DNA of 64,000 nt from Pseudoruegeria sp. HB172150 (GTDB lineage: Bacteria > Pseudomonadota > Alphaproteobacteria > Rhodobacterales > Rhodobacteraceae), in assembly GCF_013184805.1 (NCBI RefSeq), contig NZ_JAATNG010000001.1, positions 2,170,001 through 2,234,000 of the forward strand. The letters are read 5' to 3'. The position numbers were made by a program, and so were the translations under genes. The notes under the pieces are model-generated. The model was given only the letters and a program-made list of their open reading frames with translations. It made no database searches and was not told the DNA's origin. Positions 708-31,307 of this stretch are shown here, piece by piece (position 1 is the stretch's first letter; the number at the start of each line of letters is the position of its first letter).

Positions 708-3700
708 CTATTCTGCCGCGCTGCGCAGCGAGGCATCGCCATGGCGGATCGCCGCCCAAAGCTCTTCCCTGCGTTTTGCCGCCTTCTCTTCATTCGCCGC
801 CTTTACAGGACCGAAGCCCCTGATCTGCAGCGGCAGTTCTGCCAGAGCGACCGCGGCGTCAAGGGGAATTTCGGGCCCCTCTTTCAAGAGCGCGTCCATA
901 TCCGCCTCGAACTGCCGGATCAGGGAGCGTTCCATGCGGCGCTCGGCGCTGTATCCGAATGGGTCCAATGGCGTGCCGCGGAGAAATTTCAACCGGGCGA
1001 GACCGGCGAGAACCCGCCGCATGCCCGGGCCGAATTCGCGTTTCCTGGGCCGTCCGTCCGGCCCTTTGCGCGCCATGATTGGCGGTGACATGTGGTAGGT
1101 CAGCCGCAGGTCACCGCCGAATGCCTCACGTGCTCTTTCCTCGCTGTCGAGCAGCAGTCGAGCGACCTCGTACTCGTCCTTGTAGGCCAACAGCTTGTAA
1201 TAGCCCTTCGCGACGGCCTCTTTCAGGCGAGGTGTTTCGAACCGTTCCAGAAAAGCCTTATACCGTTGAGCCAGAGCCCTCGATTGGTAAACTTCTAGGT
1301 TACCGGCACGGTAGGAAATCTTTTCTTCCAGAGATTTTGGCAGCTCCACGACACTCGGCTTTGCCAGACGCTCTGCTTCGACAGGATACAGCACCGCCCA
1401 GCGCCCGACTTCGAAAGCGCGCTTGTTCCTTTCCGGAGCTGCACCATTCATCTCGACCGCCCGCAGGATCGCTTCATGCGAGATCGGCACCAGTCCCCGC
1501 TGCCATGCCGCACCGAAGACGATCATGTTGGAATAGATCGTATCGCCAAGAACCGCGCCGGCTAGATCGCTGGCGTCGAACAAGACCAAGCCATCCCGCA
1601 ATTTCGCTTCAAGTGACAACTCCAACCTATCCGAAGGAATACGGAATTCGGTGTCGCGAGTGAACTGACCAGTGATGATCTCGTGGCTGTTGACCACAGC
1701 GCCGGTGCGCCCCGTCTGAGTCAAACCGAGCGTCTTTGCCCCGGCCGACACCACCAGGTCCCCGCCAATCAGTGCATCACATTCGCCCGTTGCCACGCGG
1801 ATCGCCGAGATATCCTCGGGCCGCTCCGCCAGGCGGCAATGGATATGAACTGCACCGCCCTTTTGCGCCAGTCCGGCCATCTCCATCATGCCGGCGCCCT
1901 TGCCATCCAAGAAAGCGGCCATGGCCATCACAGCGCCGATAGTCACGACACCGGTGCCGCCGACGCCGGTGATCACGACGTTATATGTGCCGTGTATCTG
2001 TGGTAGAACGGGATCCGGCAATTCGCCAATGTCCAGATCCACTGTGGCGGACTTCTTTAGCTTGGCACCCGTCACGGTAACAAAGGACGGGCAGAAGCCG
2101 TTGAGACAGCTGAAATCCTTGTTGCAAGAGGATTGATCGATAGCGCGCTTGCGGCCGAGTTCGGTTTCGACCGGAACGATTGACACGCAATTCGACTGTA
2201 CACCGCAATCACCGCAGCCTTCGCATACGTCTGTGTTGATGAAGACGCGCTTGTCGGGATCGGGGAAGGAACCACGCTTGCGCCTGCGTCGCTTCTCCGC
2301 TGCGCAGGTCTGCATGTAAATTATGGCGGACACGCCTTTGTAATAGCTGAACTTTTCCTGAACCTCCTGCATCTCCTCACGTTCGTATCGCGGCACATCG
2401 TTTGGGAAGAGGCTAAGATCCACTTCTTCCTTCTTGTCATAGACCAATGCGACATTGCGAACGCCCATCGCCCGCAGTTCGCGCGCGATCTGATCCGCCG
2501 TCAGCCCGCCGTCATTGGGTTGTCCGCCTGTCATCGCTACCGCGTCGTTGTAAAGAATCTTGTAGGTAATGTTGGTGCCGGCCATCAGAGCGAAGCGGAT
2601 CGCCTGCACACCGGAATGGTTGTAGGTGCCGTCGCCGAGGTTCTGGAATACATGCTCGCGGGTCGAGAACGGAGCTTCGCCGATCCAATTTGCGCCCTCG
2701 GCACCCATATGGGTAAAGCCGACCGTCTCTCGCTCCATCCACTGAACCATAAAATGGCAGCCGATCCCGGCATAGGCGCGGCTGCCCTGCGGCAGCTTAG
2801 TTGATGTGTTGTGCGGGCAACCGGAGCAGAAATAGGGAAGGCGCGCCGCGATTTCCTCCGCATTGTCGGCTTTCTTCGCTTCCTCAATGCCTTGCAGCGC
2901 AGACTTCATTCGATCGGTGCCGCGCCCCTCTTCGATGAGGATGCCACCGATCTTCTCCGCGATCATCACCGGGTCCAGCGCGTAGCGCGTCGGGAAGAGT
3001 TCGTCGCGGTGCATTCCGCCGGCGCCGCCCTTGTACCAGCCATAAACGCGGCGGCCGCGCCGGTCGTCGAAAATCGCTTCCTTGATCTGAACCTCGATCA
3101 GCTTCCGCTTTTCCTCGACGACCACGATCAGTTCCAGGCCCTCCGCCCAGTCGTGGAAGCCCTTCATGTCCATCGGCCAGGTTTGACCGACCTTGTATGT
3201 GGTGATGCCCAGCCGTTCTGCTGCCGCCTCGTCCACGCCCAGCAGTTGCAGCGCATGTACCAGGTCCAGCCAGTTTTTGCCCGCAGCGACGAACCCGACT
3301 TTCGCGCCAGGCTTGCCCCAGACGCGCCTGTCGATGCCATTCGCTCGAGAGAACGCCTCTGCCGCGAAGCGTTTGTAGTCAATCATCCGCTCTTCCTGCG
3401 GGATCCAGTGATCGGCAAGGCGGATATTCAGTCCGTCCTCGGGCATCGCAAAATCCGGTTGGACAAATGACATGCGGCCGGAACGTCCGTCGACCACCGC
3501 TGTCGCCTCCACCGTGTCTTTCATCAGTTTCAGGCCGGCCCAGACGCCCGCGAAGCGACTGAGAGCATAACCGTATAGCCCGTAATCAAGGATTTCCTGC
3601 ACGCCCGCAGGTGACAGCACCGGCATGTAGGCGTCCACCATCGCCCAATCGGACTGATGGCAGACGGTGGAGCTTTCGCCGGTGTGGTCATCGCCCATCG

Positions 3701-4124
3701 CCATCAGCACGCCGCCATGCGCCGAGCTGCCCGCCATGTTGGCATGCCGCATTGCGTCGCCGGATCGGTCAACACCGGGGCCCTTACCGTACCAGAGCCC
3801 GAAGACACCGTCGAAGCGCCCTTCCCCGCGCAGTTCCGCCTGCTGCGTGCCCCACAGCGCGGTTGCGGCCAGATCTTCGTTCAGGCCCGGTTGAAACCGG
3901 ATATCCGACGCTTCCAGCAAGTCGCGAGCACGCGTCATCCACTGGTCGACCGCGCCCAGCGGCGAGCCGCGGTAGCCGCTGACATAGCCTGCCGTGTTCA
4001 GCCCCGCCGCCCGGTCCCGTGCCTTCTGCATCAGCATAAGCCGGACAAGTGCCTGCGTTCCGTTGAGCAAGACCGGGGATTTTTCCAAATCGAACCGGTC
4101 GCGTAGCGATACATCCTGCCGCAT
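708..4124 (-). CDS. Indolepyruvate:ferredoxin oxidoreductase, fused alpha/beta form
   Basis: This 1138-residue protein joins the parts that are separate IorA and IorB subunits in archaea. The N-terminal and central parts carry the pyrimidine-binding and thiamine diphosphate domains; a cysteine-rich iron-sulfur segment follows at about residues 630-690 (DVCEGCGDCGVQSNC, then further cysteines), and a gamma-type domain begins near 715 with VVITGVGGTGVVTIG. The family oxidatively decarboxylates aryl- or branched 2-oxoacids from amino acid breakdown to acyl-CoA, reducing ferredoxin. The start has a strong GGGAGG ribosome site 10 bases upstream. The gene stands alone, divergent from a LysR regulator. 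Length fits the proteobacterial fused family. The exact oxoacid substrate is not known. Confidence 0.93.
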   Translation of the reverse strand: MRQDVSLRDRFDLEKSPVLLNGTQALVRLMLMQKARDRAAGLNTAGYVSGYRGSPLGAVDQWMTRARDLLEASDIRFQPGLNEDLAATALWGTQQAELRGEGRFDGVFGLWYGKGPGVDRSGDAMRHANMAGSSAHGGVLMAMGDDHTGESSTVCHQSDWAMVDAYMPVLSPAGVQEILDYGLYGYALSRFAGVWAGLKLMKDTVEATAVVDGRSGRMSFVQPDFAMPEDGLNIRLADHWIPQEERMIDYKRFAAEAFSRANGIDRRVWGKPGAKVGFVAAGKNWLDLVHALQLLGVDEAAAERLGITTYKVGQTWPMDMKGFHDWAEGLELIVVVEEKRKLIEVQIKEAIFDDRRGRRVYGWYKGGAGGMHRDELFPTRYALDPVMIAEKIGGILIEEGRGTDRMKSALQGIEEAKKADNAEEIAARLPYFCSGCPHNTSTKLPQGSRAYAGIGCHFMVQWMERETVGFTHMGAEGANWIGEAPFSTREHVFQNLGDGTYNHSGVQAIRFALMAGTNITYKILYNDAVAMTGGQPNDGGLTADQIARELRAMGVRNVALVYDKKEEVDLSLFPNDVPRYEREEMQEVQEKFSYYKGVSAIIYMQTCAAEKRRRRKRGSFPDPDKRVFINTDVCEGCGDCGVQSNCVSIVPVETELGRKRAIDQSSCNKDFSCLNGFCPSFVTVTGAKLKKSATVDLDIGELPDPVLPQIHGTYNVVITGVGGTGVVTIGAVMAMAAFLDGKGAGMMEMAGLAQKGGAVHIHCRLAERPEDISAIRVATGECDALIGGDLVVSAGAKTLGLTQTGRTGAVVNSHEIITGQFTRDTEFRIPSDRLELSLEAKLRDGLVLFDASDLAGAVLGDTIYSNMIVFGAAWQRGLVPISHEAILRAVEMNGAAPERNKRAFEVGRWAVLYPVEAERLAKPSVVELPKSLEEKISYRAGNLEVYQSRALAQRYKAFLERFETPRLKEAVAKGYYKLLAYKDEYEVARLLLDSEERAREAFGGDLRLTYHMSPPIMARKGPDGRPRKREFGPGMRRVLAGLARLKFLRGTPLDPFGYSAERRMERSLIRQFEADMDALLKEGPEIPLDAAVALAELPLQIRGFGPVKAANEEKAAKRREELWAAIRHGDASLRSAAE

Positions 4125-4164
4125 TTTTGTGCGCCTCCCTTACCGGGACTTTATAACATGATTA

Positions 4165-4285: not shown

Positions 4286-5191
4286 ATGGATTGGGATAAG
4301 CTAAGAATATTTCACGCGGTAGCCGACGCGGGCAGCCTCACGCATGCGGGAGACACGCTGCATCTGAGCCAGTCGGCGGTTTCGCGTCAGATCCGCGCGC
4401 TGGAAGAGAGCCTGAATGCAACCCTGTTTCATCGACACGCCCGCGGACTGATTCTCACCGAACAGGGAGAGCTTCTGTTCGACGCCACGTCTGCCATGGT
4501 GCGCCGCCTCGACACCGCAGAGGCCCGGATCCGCGATTCCAAGGAGGAAGTATTTGGAGAACTGCGCGTGACCACCGCCATCGGCTTCGGGTGCCTGTGG
4601 CTGGCACCACGGCTGCCTAAGCTTTACGACCGCTATCCGGATCTAAAGATCGACCTGATGCTGGAAGAGCGGGTACTGGATCTGCCGATGCGCGAGGCGG
4701 ACGTGGCGATCCGTATGAAGGAACCGAGCCAGGCTGACCTGATACGCCGCAAGCTGATGAGCGTACGCATGCGGCTTTATGCAACCCGCGACTACTTGGA
4801 ATCTGCTGGAATGCCAACGACCCTGGCGGATATCTCGAAGCACCGTCTTATCTGTCAGAGCCCCAGTGCCTTCCAGGTCGCCGCGGGTGCAAGCTTGGTT
4901 CAGGAACTGATCGCCAACGACGTCCGCTCGCTGCTGACCGTGAACAACTATTTTGGCGTGTTGCAGGGAGTGGTCAACAACCTCGGCATCGGCGTCCTAC
5001 CCGACTATCTGCTGGACGATTTCCCGGAGATGGTCCGCGTGCTTCCTGACGTGGAATCGAACGAGGTACCCGTGTTCCTCGCCTACCCGGAAGAATTGCG
5101 CAATTCCAAGCGCATTGGCGCTTTCCGCGACTTCGTCACGGAAGAGATTTTTGCTTACCGAAAACGCAAAACCGAGGAGTCGGCAGCCTAA
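4286..5191 (+). CDS. LysR-family regulator of the VtlR/LsrB type
   Basis: A 301-residue LysR protein. Residues 1-60 hold the winged helix-turn-helix (DWDKLRIFHAVADAGSLTHA, then SQSAVSRQIRALE), followed by HRHARGLILTEQGELL and a periplasmic-binding-like effector domain. The N-terminal half closely resembles what I recall of VtlR of Brucella and LsrB of Agrobacterium and Sinorhizobium, which activate AbcR small RNAs and DUF1127 mini-protein genes and affect envelope and oxidative-stress traits. It is divergent from the Ior gene. A predicted AbcR-like RNA follows immediately 3', and a DUF1127 gene with a similar upstream motif lies near 16.9 kb, both supporting the assignment. It could instead regulate only the Ior gene. 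Confidence 0.85.
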   Translation: MDWDKLRIFHAVADAGSLTHAGDTLHLSQSAVSRQIRALEESLNATLFHRHARGLILTEQGELLFDATSAMVRRLDTAEARIRDSKEEVFGELRVTTAIGFGCLWLAPRLPKLYDRYPDLKIDLMLEERVLDLPMREADVAIRMKEPSQADLIRRKLMSVRMRLYATRDYLESAGMPTTLADISKHRLICQSPSAFQVAAGASLVQELIANDVRSLLTVNNYFGVLQGVVNNLGIGVLPDYLLDDFPEMVRVLPDVESNEVPVFLAYPEELRNSKRIGAFRDFVTEEIFAYRKRKTEESAA

Positions 5192-5216
5192 CACCTGTGG
5201 CAGTTATGCACCTGCA

Positions 5217-5232
5217 GCATAGCGGCCATGCG
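5217..5232 (+). promoter_or_regulatory. Candidate VtlR/LsrB box upstream of sRNA
   Basis: GCATAGCGGCCATGCG fits the gap-free pattern GCATNNCGGCNNTGCR, which recurs at 16854-16869 upstream of the DUF1127 gene. ATGC/GCAT arms repeat at about 11-base spacing in this stretch (5206-5231). A TACTAT -10-like hexamer sits at 5241-5246, so an RNA would begin near 5253. Seen directly: the shared pattern. Inferred: binding by the adjacent LysR protein. Confidence 0.5.
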
Positions 5233-5252
5233 ACGCACCGTACTATTTCTGC

Positions 5253-5371
5253 TTGATCCGCAGGCACTCGAAGCATATCTGCCCATTGAAGACGCGAGGC
5301 TTGATCATACCGCCTTCGCGTTTTTACCTCCCTGTTGGACTTGGCCGGGCTTCGCGCCCGGCCTTTTTTTG
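5253..5371 (+). ncRNA. Candidate AbcR-like trans-acting small RNA
   Basis: No convincing gene occupies this stretch, but it has the build of an Hfq-type sRNA of about 119 nt. A hairpin (5292-5300 with 5312-5321, one bulged T) is followed by a single-stranded UUUUUACCUCCCUG containing an anti-Shine-Dalgarno run, then a perfect GC hairpin with a T tract. AbcR (alpha-r15) sRNAs of Rhizobiales have this size, a CUCCC-type anti-SD motif and a place near VtlR, and repress ABC and other transporter mRNAs. The 5' end is inferred from the TACTAT hexamer at 5241. A 105-codon frame crosses the region and runs through the terminator; I reject it as a gene. Confidence 0.55.
5343..5370 (+). terminator. Rho-independent terminator of the sRNA candidate
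   Basis: GGCCGGGC at 5343-5350 and GCCCGGCC at 5356-5363 form a perfect 8-bp stem with a TTCGC loop, followed by seven T residues. It also could end lysR read-through. Confidence 0.9.
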
Positions 5372-5716
5372 TCGTTTGACTGCCCGGGGCACGCCCAGAC
5401 CGTAAGAACCGTCTTTCATTCTGTCCTTTTCGGGGATCAGCCAAACCATCTGATCGGGCCGTTTAGGCTGAGGTCCCGCAAAATCCGGCGCGGTGGCAAG
5501 TTTTTGCGAGATCTCCTTGGGTCACGCTGGCGGAGTTCCACCTAAATTGTGGATCGTGAACTTGCTTTGCGAATTCCTGCGCATCTCTCACTGGGGTCTC
5601 CAGCGGCATTCTGCCGGGTTCCATCGGAATACTTGTGACTTCGCTCGCAAGCTCCACCTCCTTTGCCACGCAGCCGGCCCGAGAAGGGTCTGGCGAAACA
5701 CTCCAAGGAGGCACAT
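5372..5716. other. Intergenic stretch without a recognisable gene
   Basis: Between the sRNA terminator and the secreted PRC-type protein I see no plausible start with a ribosome site and no repeat. The promoter of the next gene should lie in the last 150 bases, but I could not pick out clear -35/-10 elements. Confidence 0.5.
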
Positions 5717-6220
5717 ATGATGACCGGTAAGAACATTCTCACGGGCGTGGCACTTTCGGCACTGATTGCGGGTACCGCGGTCGCCGCATCGCTGACAGAC
5801 AATGCCGGTGAAGCCGTCGAAGGCACGACCGGCGCAATCGGCAGCACCATCGCTCAGACAGGCGACACGATGGGCGATGCAGTCACTGACAGCGGCGAAA
5901 CCGCTGGAGAGGCAGTTCAGGACACGGGCGACGTGGTCGCCAATGCCGGCGAAGCCGACCAAGCCGGCGCAGAGGGCACGGTAGTGCTTTCTTCGGATGA
6001 CCAGACCATCGGGACCGTCCAATCCGTCGAGACCACGACTGAGGGCAGCACCCAGGTGATCGTCGCTGTTGATGACAGCCTCGAGTTGCCGGTTCAGCAC
6101 GTTAAAGTCGGCGCCGAAACGGACGCGAACGGCGAATACGAGCTGGCGATGTCACGCGACGAATTCGTTGCGGCGGTCAACGCCCAGCTCAAAGCGATGG
6201 GGAACGTCCAGTCTAACTGA
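5717..6220 (+). CDS. Secreted PRC-barrel-like protein
   Basis: The start ATG at 5717 follows a strong AAGGAGG at 5705-5711, giving 167 residues. Residues 1-24 are a Sec signal peptide ending AGTAVAA. Residues 25-85 are a low-complexity, hydrophilic stretch rich in Gly, Ala, Asp and Thr with short recurring units such as TGDTMGDAV and TGDVVANAG. The C-terminal half, from about residue 88, has the beta-strand pattern of a PRC-barrel domain (VVLSSDDQTIGTVQSV). Such small envelope proteins are common in Rhodobacteraceae and often respond to stress, but their function is unknown. A terminator follows directly, so it is probably a single-gene transcript. Confidence 0.75.
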   Translation: MMTGKNILTGVALSALIAGTAVAASLTDNAGEAVEGTTGAIGSTIAQTGDTMGDAVTDSGETAGEAVQDTGDVVANAGEADQAGAEGTVVLSSDDQTIGTVQSVETTTEGSTQVIVAVDDSLELPVQHVKVGAETDANGEYELAMSRDEFVAAVNAQLKAMGNVQSN

Positions 6221-10452: not shown

Positions 10453-12105
10453 ATGAGCGTTGTGTCAAAAACAAATCTCAACCCACTGTTTCTGTATAAC
10501 CTTTCTACATATCGGGGGACGCGCTTCGCTGATGTTCTTGCCGCACCCGGACCGGATTACCGCGTTCTCGGCCTCGGCGGCGACGACACCCTGACCAGCT
10601 TTTTCAACCGTACATTCCTATTGGGCGATAAGGGAAACGACAGCCTGACCACGGAGCTGACCATCGACGATTTTGGCGTCGAACCGCTGGAAGTCGTCGC
10701 CGTTCAAAGTGGCGGATGGGGCCGCGACAGCCTGTCGGCATATCTGGACGTTACAGCCGATGAGAGCGTTTCGACCTGGATTGTGCAGGACGGCGGCCCC
10801 GGCGACGATGTCATCAACGCGTCTAGTATCGTGGATAGCTACGGTGACGAGGTCAGCATCATCAACAAGATATGCGGCGGATTTGGGAATGATATCATCG
10901 ATGTCCTCGCCCTAAGCGACGGCCCACCCGGGTCGAGCTTTCTCTACAACGAGGTGAATGGCGGACACGGGAACGATACGATTACCGTCATCGCCGATGG
11001 CGACTTCGACGGCTCCGACAGCACAGCGATCAACAAGGTCTGGGGCGGTTTCGGAGATGACGTGATCGACGCAACTGCGATCGTCGAGTCAAATTCTCCC
11101 AACCTGGCAGCCAACTACCTCTTCGGGCAGGGAGGCAACGATCGGATCAGCGCCTTCGTTCATACCGACTCAAACGGCGCCACGCCGATCGGATTGAACT
11201 GGATCAACGGTGGAAGCGGCAATGACATCATCCATGCCGAGCATTCGACTGATGGAGAGAACTTCATCACCGACGTGACCAATGAAGTTTACGGCGGAAC
11301 CGGAGGCGACGAAGTCACGGCATACATCCTGGCACTCGCCGAGGAAGATGCCTTCGCAGCCAACAAGCTTTACGGAGGGCATGCCGACGACGTGATGGCG
11401 GCCTGGATCGAGGCCGTCGCAGATGGTACCGCCGAGGCAACGAACACGCTCAGCGGCGGCAAGGGCAATGACGTCCTGACCGCCTGGGCTTCGGCACTGA
11501 ATTCCTTTGGCACATCGAGTACGGCCTTTGCGCTGAACCTTTTGGAGGGGGGGCGTGACAATGACACGCTCGAGGCGACGATTGCCCCCGGCTCCAATGG
11601 CAGAAGCGAGCTATATGGCGGGAACGGCAATGACAGCCTGAGCGTCGTGGGCGGGGACGGAAATATCCTGGACGGCGGGGTGGGCGACGACACAGTTACC
11701 GGTGGCGACTACCAGGACTTGCTGATCGGTGGGAAAGGCGAAGACGCGCTCGAGGGCGGACTGGGCGACGACGAATACTGCGGCGGTGCCGATGCCGACA
11801 CTTTTGTTTTCACGGCCGCCGAGGATCAGGGTATCGAGACACTGCAGGACTTCAACAGGACCCAGGATCGGCTGCGTTTTCTGGACGTCGACGATTTCGG
11901 GATGCAGGGGCTTGTCGATGACCTCGATCTTATTGCGAGTTTCGCAGACAGTGGACCGGGCGGCAATGTCGAAGTGACGCTCAACTCTGGAACCGTACTG
12001 ACCTTTGTCGGGCTGGGAACCGGAACTGTCGACAGCTTTGCGGATCTTGTCGACGATCCCATGGCTCAATTGTTGGGTGCGAGCGATCCGCTGATGATGA
12101 CCTGA
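10453..12105 (+). CDS. RTX-like calcium-binding protein with long-period repeats
   Basis: A 550-residue acidic protein with no signal peptide, as expected for type I secretion. At least a dozen RTX-type nonapeptide cores (GGxGNDxI/L) are present, but through residues 100-400 they stand singly, separated by 35-45 residue inserts that begin with an IxAxx strand and end in an Asn-Lys/Leu just before the next core (for example NKVWGGFGDDVIDATAI and NEVYGGTGGDEVTAYIL). Only residues 390-450 show closely packed repeats (LYGGNGNDSL, LDGGVGDDTV, LIGGKGEDAL). The C terminus has the usual post-repeat block GADADTFVFT then DRLRFLDVD. Role is unknown; export would need a TolC-type transporter not seen here. 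AGGAGA precedes the start. Confidence 0.85.
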   Translation: MSVVSKTNLNPLFLYNLSTYRGTRFADVLAAPGPDYRVLGLGGDDTLTSFFNRTFLLGDKGNDSLTTELTIDDFGVEPLEVVAVQSGGWGRDSLSAYLDVTADESVSTWIVQDGGPGDDVINASSIVDSYGDEVSIINKICGGFGNDIIDVLALSDGPPGSSFLYNEVNGGHGNDTITVIADGDFDGSDSTAINKVWGGFGDDVIDATAIVESNSPNLAANYLFGQGGNDRISAFVHTDSNGATPIGLNWINGGSGNDIIHAEHSTDGENFITDVTNEVYGGTGGDEVTAYILALAEEDAFAANKLYGGHADDVMAAWIEAVADGTAEATNTLSGGKGNDVLTAWASALNSFGTSSTAFALNLLEGGRDNDTLEATIAPGSNGRSELYGGNGNDSLSVVGGDGNILDGGVGDDTVTGGDYQDLLIGGKGEDALEGGLGDDEYCGGADADTFVFTAAEDQGIETLQDFNRTQDRLRFLDVDDFGMQGLVDDLDLIASFADSGPGGNVEVTLNSGTVLTFVGLGTGTVDSFADLVDDPMAQLLGASDPLMMT

Positions 12106-30137: not shown

Positions 30138-31145
30138 TCACATCGAGGCGTTGATGTTCTGCGCCGCTTCGATGTTGTCGGTGCCGACATCGCCTTCGAA
30201 CTGAGTCCAGACCGGCTTCATCGCGTCGACCCAGGCCTGACGCTGTTCCGGCGACAGTTCGCGGATCTCGCCGCCCGCATCCAGGATCGCCTGGCGTGCT
30301 TCTGCATCGACCTCTCCCACGGCAGCGTTCCGCTCGGCCGTGACTTCGTGAAGGATGGTCAGGAACTGGTCGCGGACGTCCGCGTCGAGGCTGTCGAGCC
30401 AGTCGACCGAGGTCACGACGAGGTAGTCGAGAACACCGTGGTTGGTCTCGGTGGAGCCGTCCTGCACTTCGAAGAATTTCTGGCCGTAGATGTTGGACCA
30501 GGTGTTTTCCTGACCATCGACAACGCCGGTCTGCAGTGCGCCGTAAACTTCGGAGAAGGCCATCGGCTGCGGCGATGCATCGAGAGCTTCCATCTGGGCG
30601 ACCAGCACGTCGGAGGGCTGCACGCGGAATTTCAGCCCGGCGGCATCCTCGGGTGCGAGCAGCGGCTTGTTGGCCGAGAACTGCTTCATACCGTTATGCC
30701 AGAAATCGAGGCCGAGCAGACCGCGGCGAACCATGGATTCCTTCATCGCCTGGCCGGTCTCGGACGCCTGGAAGACATCGACCGCTTCGATATTCTTGAA
30801 CATGAACGGAAGGTCGAAGATGCGGAAGACCTTGGTGAAGGCTTCGAACTTGGACAGTGACGGCGCGGCGAGCTGCACGTCGCCCTGCAGCATGGCCTCG
30901 AGCACCTGGTCATCGTTGTAGAGCGTGGAGTTCGGGTAGACCTCCATGCACATCGTGCCGTCCATCTCTTCGTTCACGCGGTCGCGAAGCAGGTTCGCCG
31001 CGATGCCCTTGGGATGGGTGGCTTCGTTTGTGACGTGGGCGAACTTGACGACGATTTCGCCGTCGCCGCACGCATCCTGAGCCAGGGCAGCCTGCGCGGA
31101 CAGCACAAGAGCGACCGCGGTTGCGGCCTGGGTGAAGAATTTCAT
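30138..31145 (-). CDS. dctP: TRAP transporter substrate-binding protein (DctP)
   Basis: A 335-residue periplasmic protein with a signal peptide (residues 1-22, ending AQAALAQ). It shows the DctP fold: VVKFAHVTNEATHPKG at the start, the ligand arginine region AGLKFRVQPSDVLV and the hinge segment GVVDGQENTWSNIY. Resemblance to the C4-dicarboxylate DctP of Rhodobacter supports succinate/malate/fumarate binding. The ribosome site GGGAGGATACC is strong and complementary to the CCUCCC of the sRNA candidate at 5.3 kb. Two inverted repeats upstream may be regulator sites. No -24/-12 promoter was found. Confidence 0.93.
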   Translation of the reverse strand: MKFFTQAATAVALVLSAQAALAQDACGDGEIVVKFAHVTNEATHPKGIAANLLRDRVNEEMDGTMCMEVYPNSTLYNDDQVLEAMLQGDVQLAAPSLSKFEAFTKVFRIFDLPFMFKNIEAVDVFQASETGQAMKESMVRRGLLGLDFWHNGMKQFSANKPLLAPEDAAGLKFRVQPSDVLVAQMEALDASPQPMAFSEVYGALQTGVVDGQENTWSNIYGQKFFEVQDGSTETNHGVLDYLVVTSVDWLDSLDADVRDQFLTILHEVTAERNAAVGEVDAEARQAILDAGGEIRELSPEQRQAWVDAMKPVWTQFEGDVGTDNIEAAQNINASM

Positions 31146-31307
31146 CGGTATCCTCCCGATTGGTATGTTGTTCCTCCGAGGGCCCGTGTCGGGGCCTCGC
31201 GGCGAGTGAAATCGGCGGAGGATCGCCGGGCAAGCAAAACTTGACGGATTCGTGATCCCGGATGAATTGCGTTTCTTAACAGCGATTTAGATCGGGGCGC
31301 ACTACAA

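Follow-up and report, generated by a model that had tools for sequence, protein, structure and literature searches.

A positional ortholog of the small RNA SorY behind an lsrB gene of Rhodobacteraceae, with predicted LsrB control and TRAP-transporter targets

The stretch of DNA analysed here (64 000 nucleotides in full, hereafter the window) encodes, directly behind the gene for a LysR-type regulator, a small RNA (sRNA) that is best explained, with a probability of about 0.8, as an ortholog of SorY, ~86 nt long, which would be transcribed from its own promoter, is most likely activated by LsrB and is predicted to lower the expression of TRAP-transporter and Ior genes with GGGAGG ribosome sites. 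Under the mechanism we propose, LsrB from the adjoining gene most likely binds an operator at 5206–5232 and thereby switches on a promoter of the CTTGA type; the resulting RNA would then pair, via ACCUCCCUGUU, with GGGAGG ribosome sites, chiefly those of TRAP binding-protein genes such as dctP, as well as that of the Ior gene, and pairing at these sites would reduce the expression of the targets. The positional orthology with SorY, the linkage to lsrB, the operator-like site and the excess of target sites among the TRAP genes were all obtained by calculation.

The sRNA gene spans positions ~5286–5371 of the forward strand, as delineated by the Rfam scan, alignment, a cross-family model and folding, and begins 94 nt past the end of the LysR gene (4286–5191, forward strand). 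The first-pass annotation had described a bulged hairpin, an exposed UACCUCCCUGUUGGACUU and a terminator, and all three are borne out by folding and terminator search: the 5' hairpin at 5287–5326, with a closing stem more stable than in 60 of 60 shuffles, the exposed and conserved anti-Shine-Dalgarno seed at 5325–5342, recovered by core search and in the alignment of relatives, and the intrinsic terminator, an 8-bp GC stem followed by T7, at 5343–5370. The segment 5286–5371 as a whole folds with z = -5.6, and none of 200 shuffles is equally stable. Across the family, the closing stems, when tested singly, score better than the average of their shuffles in 44 of 57 loci; RNAalifold, run on the aligned family sequences, finds little covariation, the reason being that their 5' hairpins do not align. 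The start is taken from the published 5' end of SorY in R. sphaeroides (1,632,642; PMC6238624), which maps by alignment to ~5286 in the window. The ~119-nt extent proposed at first (5253–5371) had been read from TACTAT (5240–5245) as the -10 element, and since that hexamer lies away from the conserved promoter position, this extent is wrong and the RNA comes to ~86 nt. The expected conservation behind lsrB did hold, with the strict core UACCUCCCUGUUGGACUU found downstream of this LysR gene in 52 of the 61 family loci (the window and 60 further loci, chosen non-randomly, from the top and from lower down the similarity ranking of the 145 other family genomes that gave a match). A gene for a secreted-looking protein of 167 aa (5717–6220), in which Pfam recognises no domain at E up to 1e-5, separates the sRNA from purL; farther along, the product of 10453–12105 is rich in GGxGxD-type repeats that, by eye, look calcium-binding.

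The only gathering-level Rfam match in the 64-kb window is that of this sRNA to SorX (RF02784; 63.8 bits, E 3e-13, cut-off 46.6). The score for SorY (RF02651) is 42.6 bits, below the gathering cut-off of 111 because the hairpin sequence differs, and that for suhB/mmgR is 29.6 bits, below the cut-off of 41. Among 20 relatives scanned, a single locus, L034, taken as R. sphaeroides, passes the SorY cut-off (115 bits), and 9 of the same 20 reach that of SorX. A threshold met only by R. sphaeroides itself excludes the syntenic SorY orthologs, which are then labelled SorX or nothing. Judged by gene order and core, the window sRNA is a positional SorY ortholog that falls outside the Rfam family RF02651; its scores, under the SorY threshold and over that of SorX, tell against the SorY reading. 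The reference for synteny is genome G051, in which the SorX match lies at 2,598,225 and the SorY match at 1,632,645–1,632,727 (115 bits); the published 5' end of SorX being 2,598,224 (PMC6238624), both matches agree with the published positions, and on this basis G051 is treated here as R. sphaeroides 2.4.1. The ortholog of the window LysR in this genome, 79% identical, is encoded at 1,631,580–1,632,464, just upstream of SorY. A covariance model of SorY (A2), built from 47 of 57 family segments after we dropped ten, also yields weaker matches at G000:C12:202936-203017(-), G000:C1:1943242-1943325 and G051:C4:1721158-1721235 (29.3, 22.1 and 25.2 bits, respectively), which are possibly further seed-bearing sRNAs.

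The assignment of the LysR gene to the VtlR/LsrB type, made at first pass, stands. The product carries the Pfam domains HTH_1 and LysR_substrate, and with LsrB of A. tumefaciens (PDB 9HH1; PMC11975290) as the query, it comes first in its genome, at 241 bits versus 126 for the next protein; in G051, the same query finds the SorY-adjoining LysR first, at 250 bits versus 126. Conversely, the closest solved protein to the window LysR is 9HH1 (242 bits; next structure, 115). On these matches, the window LysR is the ortholog of LsrB/VtlR. In the tree, it falls among the short-branched LsrB rows, with the paralogs on long branches; there is no single LsrB clade in this tree, which has 3 label changes and long paralog branches, and one paralog row (L358) looks wrong-frame. 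LsrB is stated to be unique to Rhizobiales in PMC11975290; given the first-place matches of the A. tumefaciens protein to the window LysR and to the regulator beside SorY, this statement fails, by the best-match measure, for these genomes. The redox cysteines of A. tumefaciens LsrB (C144, C236, C244 and C273) are absent at each of the four positions from all 61 family proteins, and among 40 proteins of other families they are present in 1, 2, 0 and 1, respectively. In the homolog from B. abortus, no more than two of them are present (PMC11975290), so the four cysteines mark the Agrobacterium mechanism rather than the ortholog group. Redox sensing of the Agrobacterium type was rejected for the window LsrB, in which these cysteines are missing. 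Two records that carry LsrB proteins close to that of Agrobacterium, L233 (titled Bacillus subtilis SK6B4; 69% identical) and L189 (a MAG titled Arenimonas; 93% identical), appear to have wrong titles or to come from mixed assemblies. As for the neighbourhood, the sequence retrieved around lsrB includes the Ior gene in 44 of the 61 family loci; trxB occurs in the retrieved sequence (~1.2-1.5 kb upstream of lsrB) in 36 of 40 other-family loci versus 0 of 61 family loci. Going by this gene order, the link between lsrB and the sRNA outlasted that between lsrB and trxB in the Rhodobacteraceae family loci.

The promoter positions are anchored on the published SorY start. The -35 element is CTTGATC (5252–5258), presumably RpoH-like, and CTTG occupies this position in 50 of the 52 strict-core loci. 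At 5274–5279 is a weak -10-like CATATC, aligned with CTAAAT or CTAATT of the relatives; a -10-like element is present in 37 of the 52 loci, in 35 of these 16–17 nt past the CTTGNNN heptamer. A sigma-70 scan gave no promoter within 5150–5450; this result and the weak -10 of the window tell against the reading. Upstream of these elements, at ~-80 to -54 relative to where the sRNA begins, lies the predicted LsrB operator ATGC-N7-GCAT-N3-GG-CCATGC (5206–5232, forward strand), and R. sphaeroides has ATGC-N7-GCAT-N3-GG-N3-ATG at ~-82 to -56. The published VtlR box, GCAT-N3-TG-N3-T, has been confirmed for Brucella, whereas for Agrobacterium it is a proposal (PMC7486931); the window site has a G where this box has a T, which counts against the LsrB reading. 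Sites were scored with a matrix derived from Rhizobiales abcR operators only, 67 of 80 loci with an effective number of 25.8, the other 13 having been dropped as having no box or motif that fits the search expression, so that the training set is a selected one. In the window locus, this matrix ranks 5206–5232 first of 7948 positions (19.8 bits). In 49 of the 61 family loci, the best site, out of ~6,000 positions per locus on both strands, lies within 350 nt behind lsrB, compared with a mean of 4.3 and a maximum of 14 loci for 100 column-shuffled matrices; the site is not ranked first in 12 of the 61, which counts against the reading. The distance of the site is nearly constant in the family loci. 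In the other-family loci, the site comes first in 23 of 40, a number also reached by at least one of the 100 column-shuffled matrices, so that the operator signal there is suggestive only. From the site and its placement, we infer that LsrB, supplied by the adjoining gene, controls the window sRNA.

The ribosome sites of the Ior and dctP genes, which had been proposed as complementary targets from the window alone, hold up as predictions. Both are GGGAGG on the reverse strand, at 4134–4139 for Ior (gene at 708–4124) and at 31152–31157 for dctP (30138–31145); a pairing scan of the 58 six-frame ORFs of the window places Ior 3rd and dctP 6th, and GGGAGG is retained in relatives, namely in 24 of 30 dctP orthologs and in the Ior gene of 27 of the 44 family loci, versus 3 of 61 for lsrB and 0 of 26 for purL. 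Among 142 control ORFs, a set of six-frame ORFs that includes non-genes, GGGAGG is found in 9; for that reason, the comparison rests on the gene-based controls. In the window genome, 17 of 20 TRAP binding-protein genes carry GGGAGG, versus 8 of 30 SDR genes (p = 1e-4; 30 of 51 matches, those given as loci) and, for genes of ABC peptide-binding proteins, 6 of 26 (p = 7e-5), with gene starts chosen by ribosome-site strength in every group and a signal-peptide bonus for the transporters; the two control groups do not differ from each other (p = 1.0). Counting against this pattern, only 3 of 9 TRAP genes of R. sphaeroides have GGGAGG, takP included. In that bacterium, SorY is reported to act on the takP mRNA and to be Hfq-dependent. 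The takP gene, identified by PDB 2HZK (848 bits), carries AAGGGAGGAAUG, with a predicted SorY duplex of -27.0 kcal/mol, and another TRAP binding-protein gene, L278, has a leader, AGUCUCUAACAGGGAGGUAUC, that is predicted to pair with nearly the whole conserved seed (-28.4 kcal/mol). The window dctP product is nearest to C4-dicarboxylate binding proteins, and TakP chains are absent among the 60 matches listed. SorX has the same seed, so the target sites are not assignable to one RNA alone, and SorX may share these targets. We infer that the genes with such sites in this genome are targets and that repression would be the outcome.

Several other readings of the locus were weighed. It is conceivable, if unlikely, that the RNA is a SorY ortholog free of LsrB control, the two genes being kept as neighbours by history and transcription depending on RpoH-type sigma factors only. 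The near-invariant CTTG of the -35 element fits this reading, as do the reported control of SorY by alternative sigma factors (PMC8307010) and the missing redox cysteines of LsrB; against it stand the site of Rhizobiales abcR type at its steady distance and the persistence of the lsrB–sRNA pair in family loci where the retrieved sequence near lsrB has no trxB. The window sRNA might instead be another SorX, released by RNase E from the 3' UTR of the lsrB transcript; the SorX score above cut-off and the core common to the two RNAs suggest as much. SorX of R. sphaeroides is cut from the 3' UTR of the OmpR-like gene RSP_0847 (PMC6238624). A second SorX is nevertheless very improbable here: the window genome has a better SorX behind an OmpR-type gene (G000:C19:113222-113297, in L033; 78.3 bits), promoter elements are conserved upstream of the published SorY start, and SorY of R. 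sphaeroides has its own promoter (PMC6238624).

The proposal that the RNA is the Rhodobacterales counterpart of AbcR survives in part: it holds for the position, for the operator and for the logic, but in sequence the RNA is SorY rather than AbcR. A true AbcR (ar15, RF02345), homologous in sequence to that of Rhizobiales, is suggested by the same neighbour and the same form of operator, and yet is improbable on the following grounds. The covariance check suggested at first pass was run, and the ar15 model has no match to the window sRNA at E up to 10; a model of the lsrB-linked sRNAs (R1), run against a subset of 25 from the 80 Rhizobiales loci, gives no significant match (lowest E 1.2); and the window sRNA has one seed only, between hairpin and terminator, with none in the hairpin loop, whereas AbcR spans ~112 model positions and has three hairpins and two seeds, one of them in a hairpin loop. 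Membership in AbcR/ar15 was rejected on the two model searches. The ar15 model does find its RNA behind lsrB in 10 of the 11 Rhizobiales loci scanned (the exception being L230); its search of 231 genomes of the class gave 0 matches, with none in any control either, and is uninformative by itself. The notion that the stretch is a small-protein gene deserves next to no weight: a 105-codon frame is open at 5228–5545, but the terminator sits within it, the indels among relatives do not come in threes, and it is nucleotides rather than codons that are conserved, in line with the non-coding nature assumed from the start. The window sRNA is, then, AbcR-like in position and logic and SorY by identity.

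Outside the family, too, similar RNAs follow lsrB in the class. Of 40 loci sampled from the upper part of the list of 142 matches in other families (L054-L093), 29 are of this kind: in them, the motif C[CU]UCCCUGU followed by a T run is present within 700 nt behind lsrB, and 20 of the 29 have CGUCUCCCAGACGUGAAGCCUCCCUGUU exactly; examples, mostly CGUCUCCCAGACGUGAAGCCUCCCUGUU plus a terminator, are L056:2579-2660, L066:1155-1236(-) and L082:2674-2756. An Rfam scan of the 40 loci gave nothing above cut-off except one tRNA; below the cut-off, at E up to 0.1, the 13 loci tested show similarity to SorX (12), suhB (4) and SorY (3). A class model (A1) of 28 of the 29 segments (L091 was dropped by us) matches 57 of the 61 family sources in 58 hits, the worst at E 0.0096, and finds no such RNA in the other 4; its sole hit in the window at E up to 10 is 5301–5370 (E 1.1e-5). 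The reverse, family model recovers 20 of the 40 other-family sources at E below 0.01. Tandem copies are seen in two loci, L126:607-672 and 790-857 (-), and L059:2859-2944 and 3061-3137.

With slightly better than even odds, we suggest that LsrB and the seed-bearing sRNA behind it form one ancient alphaproteobacterial pair, in which the operator and the linkage were kept and the RNA changed, becoming SorY in Rhodobacterales, the form found in the other families, which is absent from Rfam, and AbcR in Rhizobiales, where it diverged beyond recognition or was replaced in place; SorX would be a copy, the silencing of transporter mRNAs the old job and thiol sensing a later rhizobial addition. SorY itself is already known, and the new part is the link between SorY and the VtlR/LsrB-AbcR systems. 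In the literature covered, we found no published link between SorY and AbcR, LsrB or a LysR neighbour, with the proviso that the original accounts of SorY and SorX may contain one; in one Rhodobacter paper, terms from both sides co-occur in the reference list only. If correct, this link joins SorY, a part of the photo-oxidative stress response of Rhodobacter, with the VtlR/LsrB-AbcR systems of host interaction in Rhizobiales. SorY gains a candidate transcription activator, LsrB of Rhodobacterales gains a candidate main job, and a TRAP-transporter regulon is predicted from a single feature of the ribosome site.

Compared with the known systems, the window sRNA has in common with SorY (RF02651) the place behind the LysR/LsrB ortholog, the core UACCUCCCUGUUGGACUU, a 5' hairpin, a terminator and the predicted CTTGA promoter, but the sequence of its hairpin is unlike, and its own predicted targets comprise dctP, further TRAP genes and Ior. 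With SorX (RF02784), it shares the core ACCUCCCUGUUGGA and the terminator, along with a score over the SorX cut-off; however, SorX lies behind an OmpR-type gene and the window sRNA behind a LysR-type one. The unnamed lsrB-linked sRNA of the other families likewise has a seed, CCUCCCUGU, upstream of its terminator and the same place behind lsrB, and differs in having an extra hairpin, ACGUCU-CCC-AGACGU, and, in the two cases folded, further hairpins upstream; its tandem copies resemble abcR1 and abcR2, which are arranged in tandem in some rhizobia. AbcR1 and AbcR2 (ar15, RF02345) have no detectable sequence homology to the window sRNA and yet resemble it in their place directly behind lsrB/vtlR, in an operator of the same form, in the anti-Shine-Dalgarno seed and in transporter targets, predicted in the present case.
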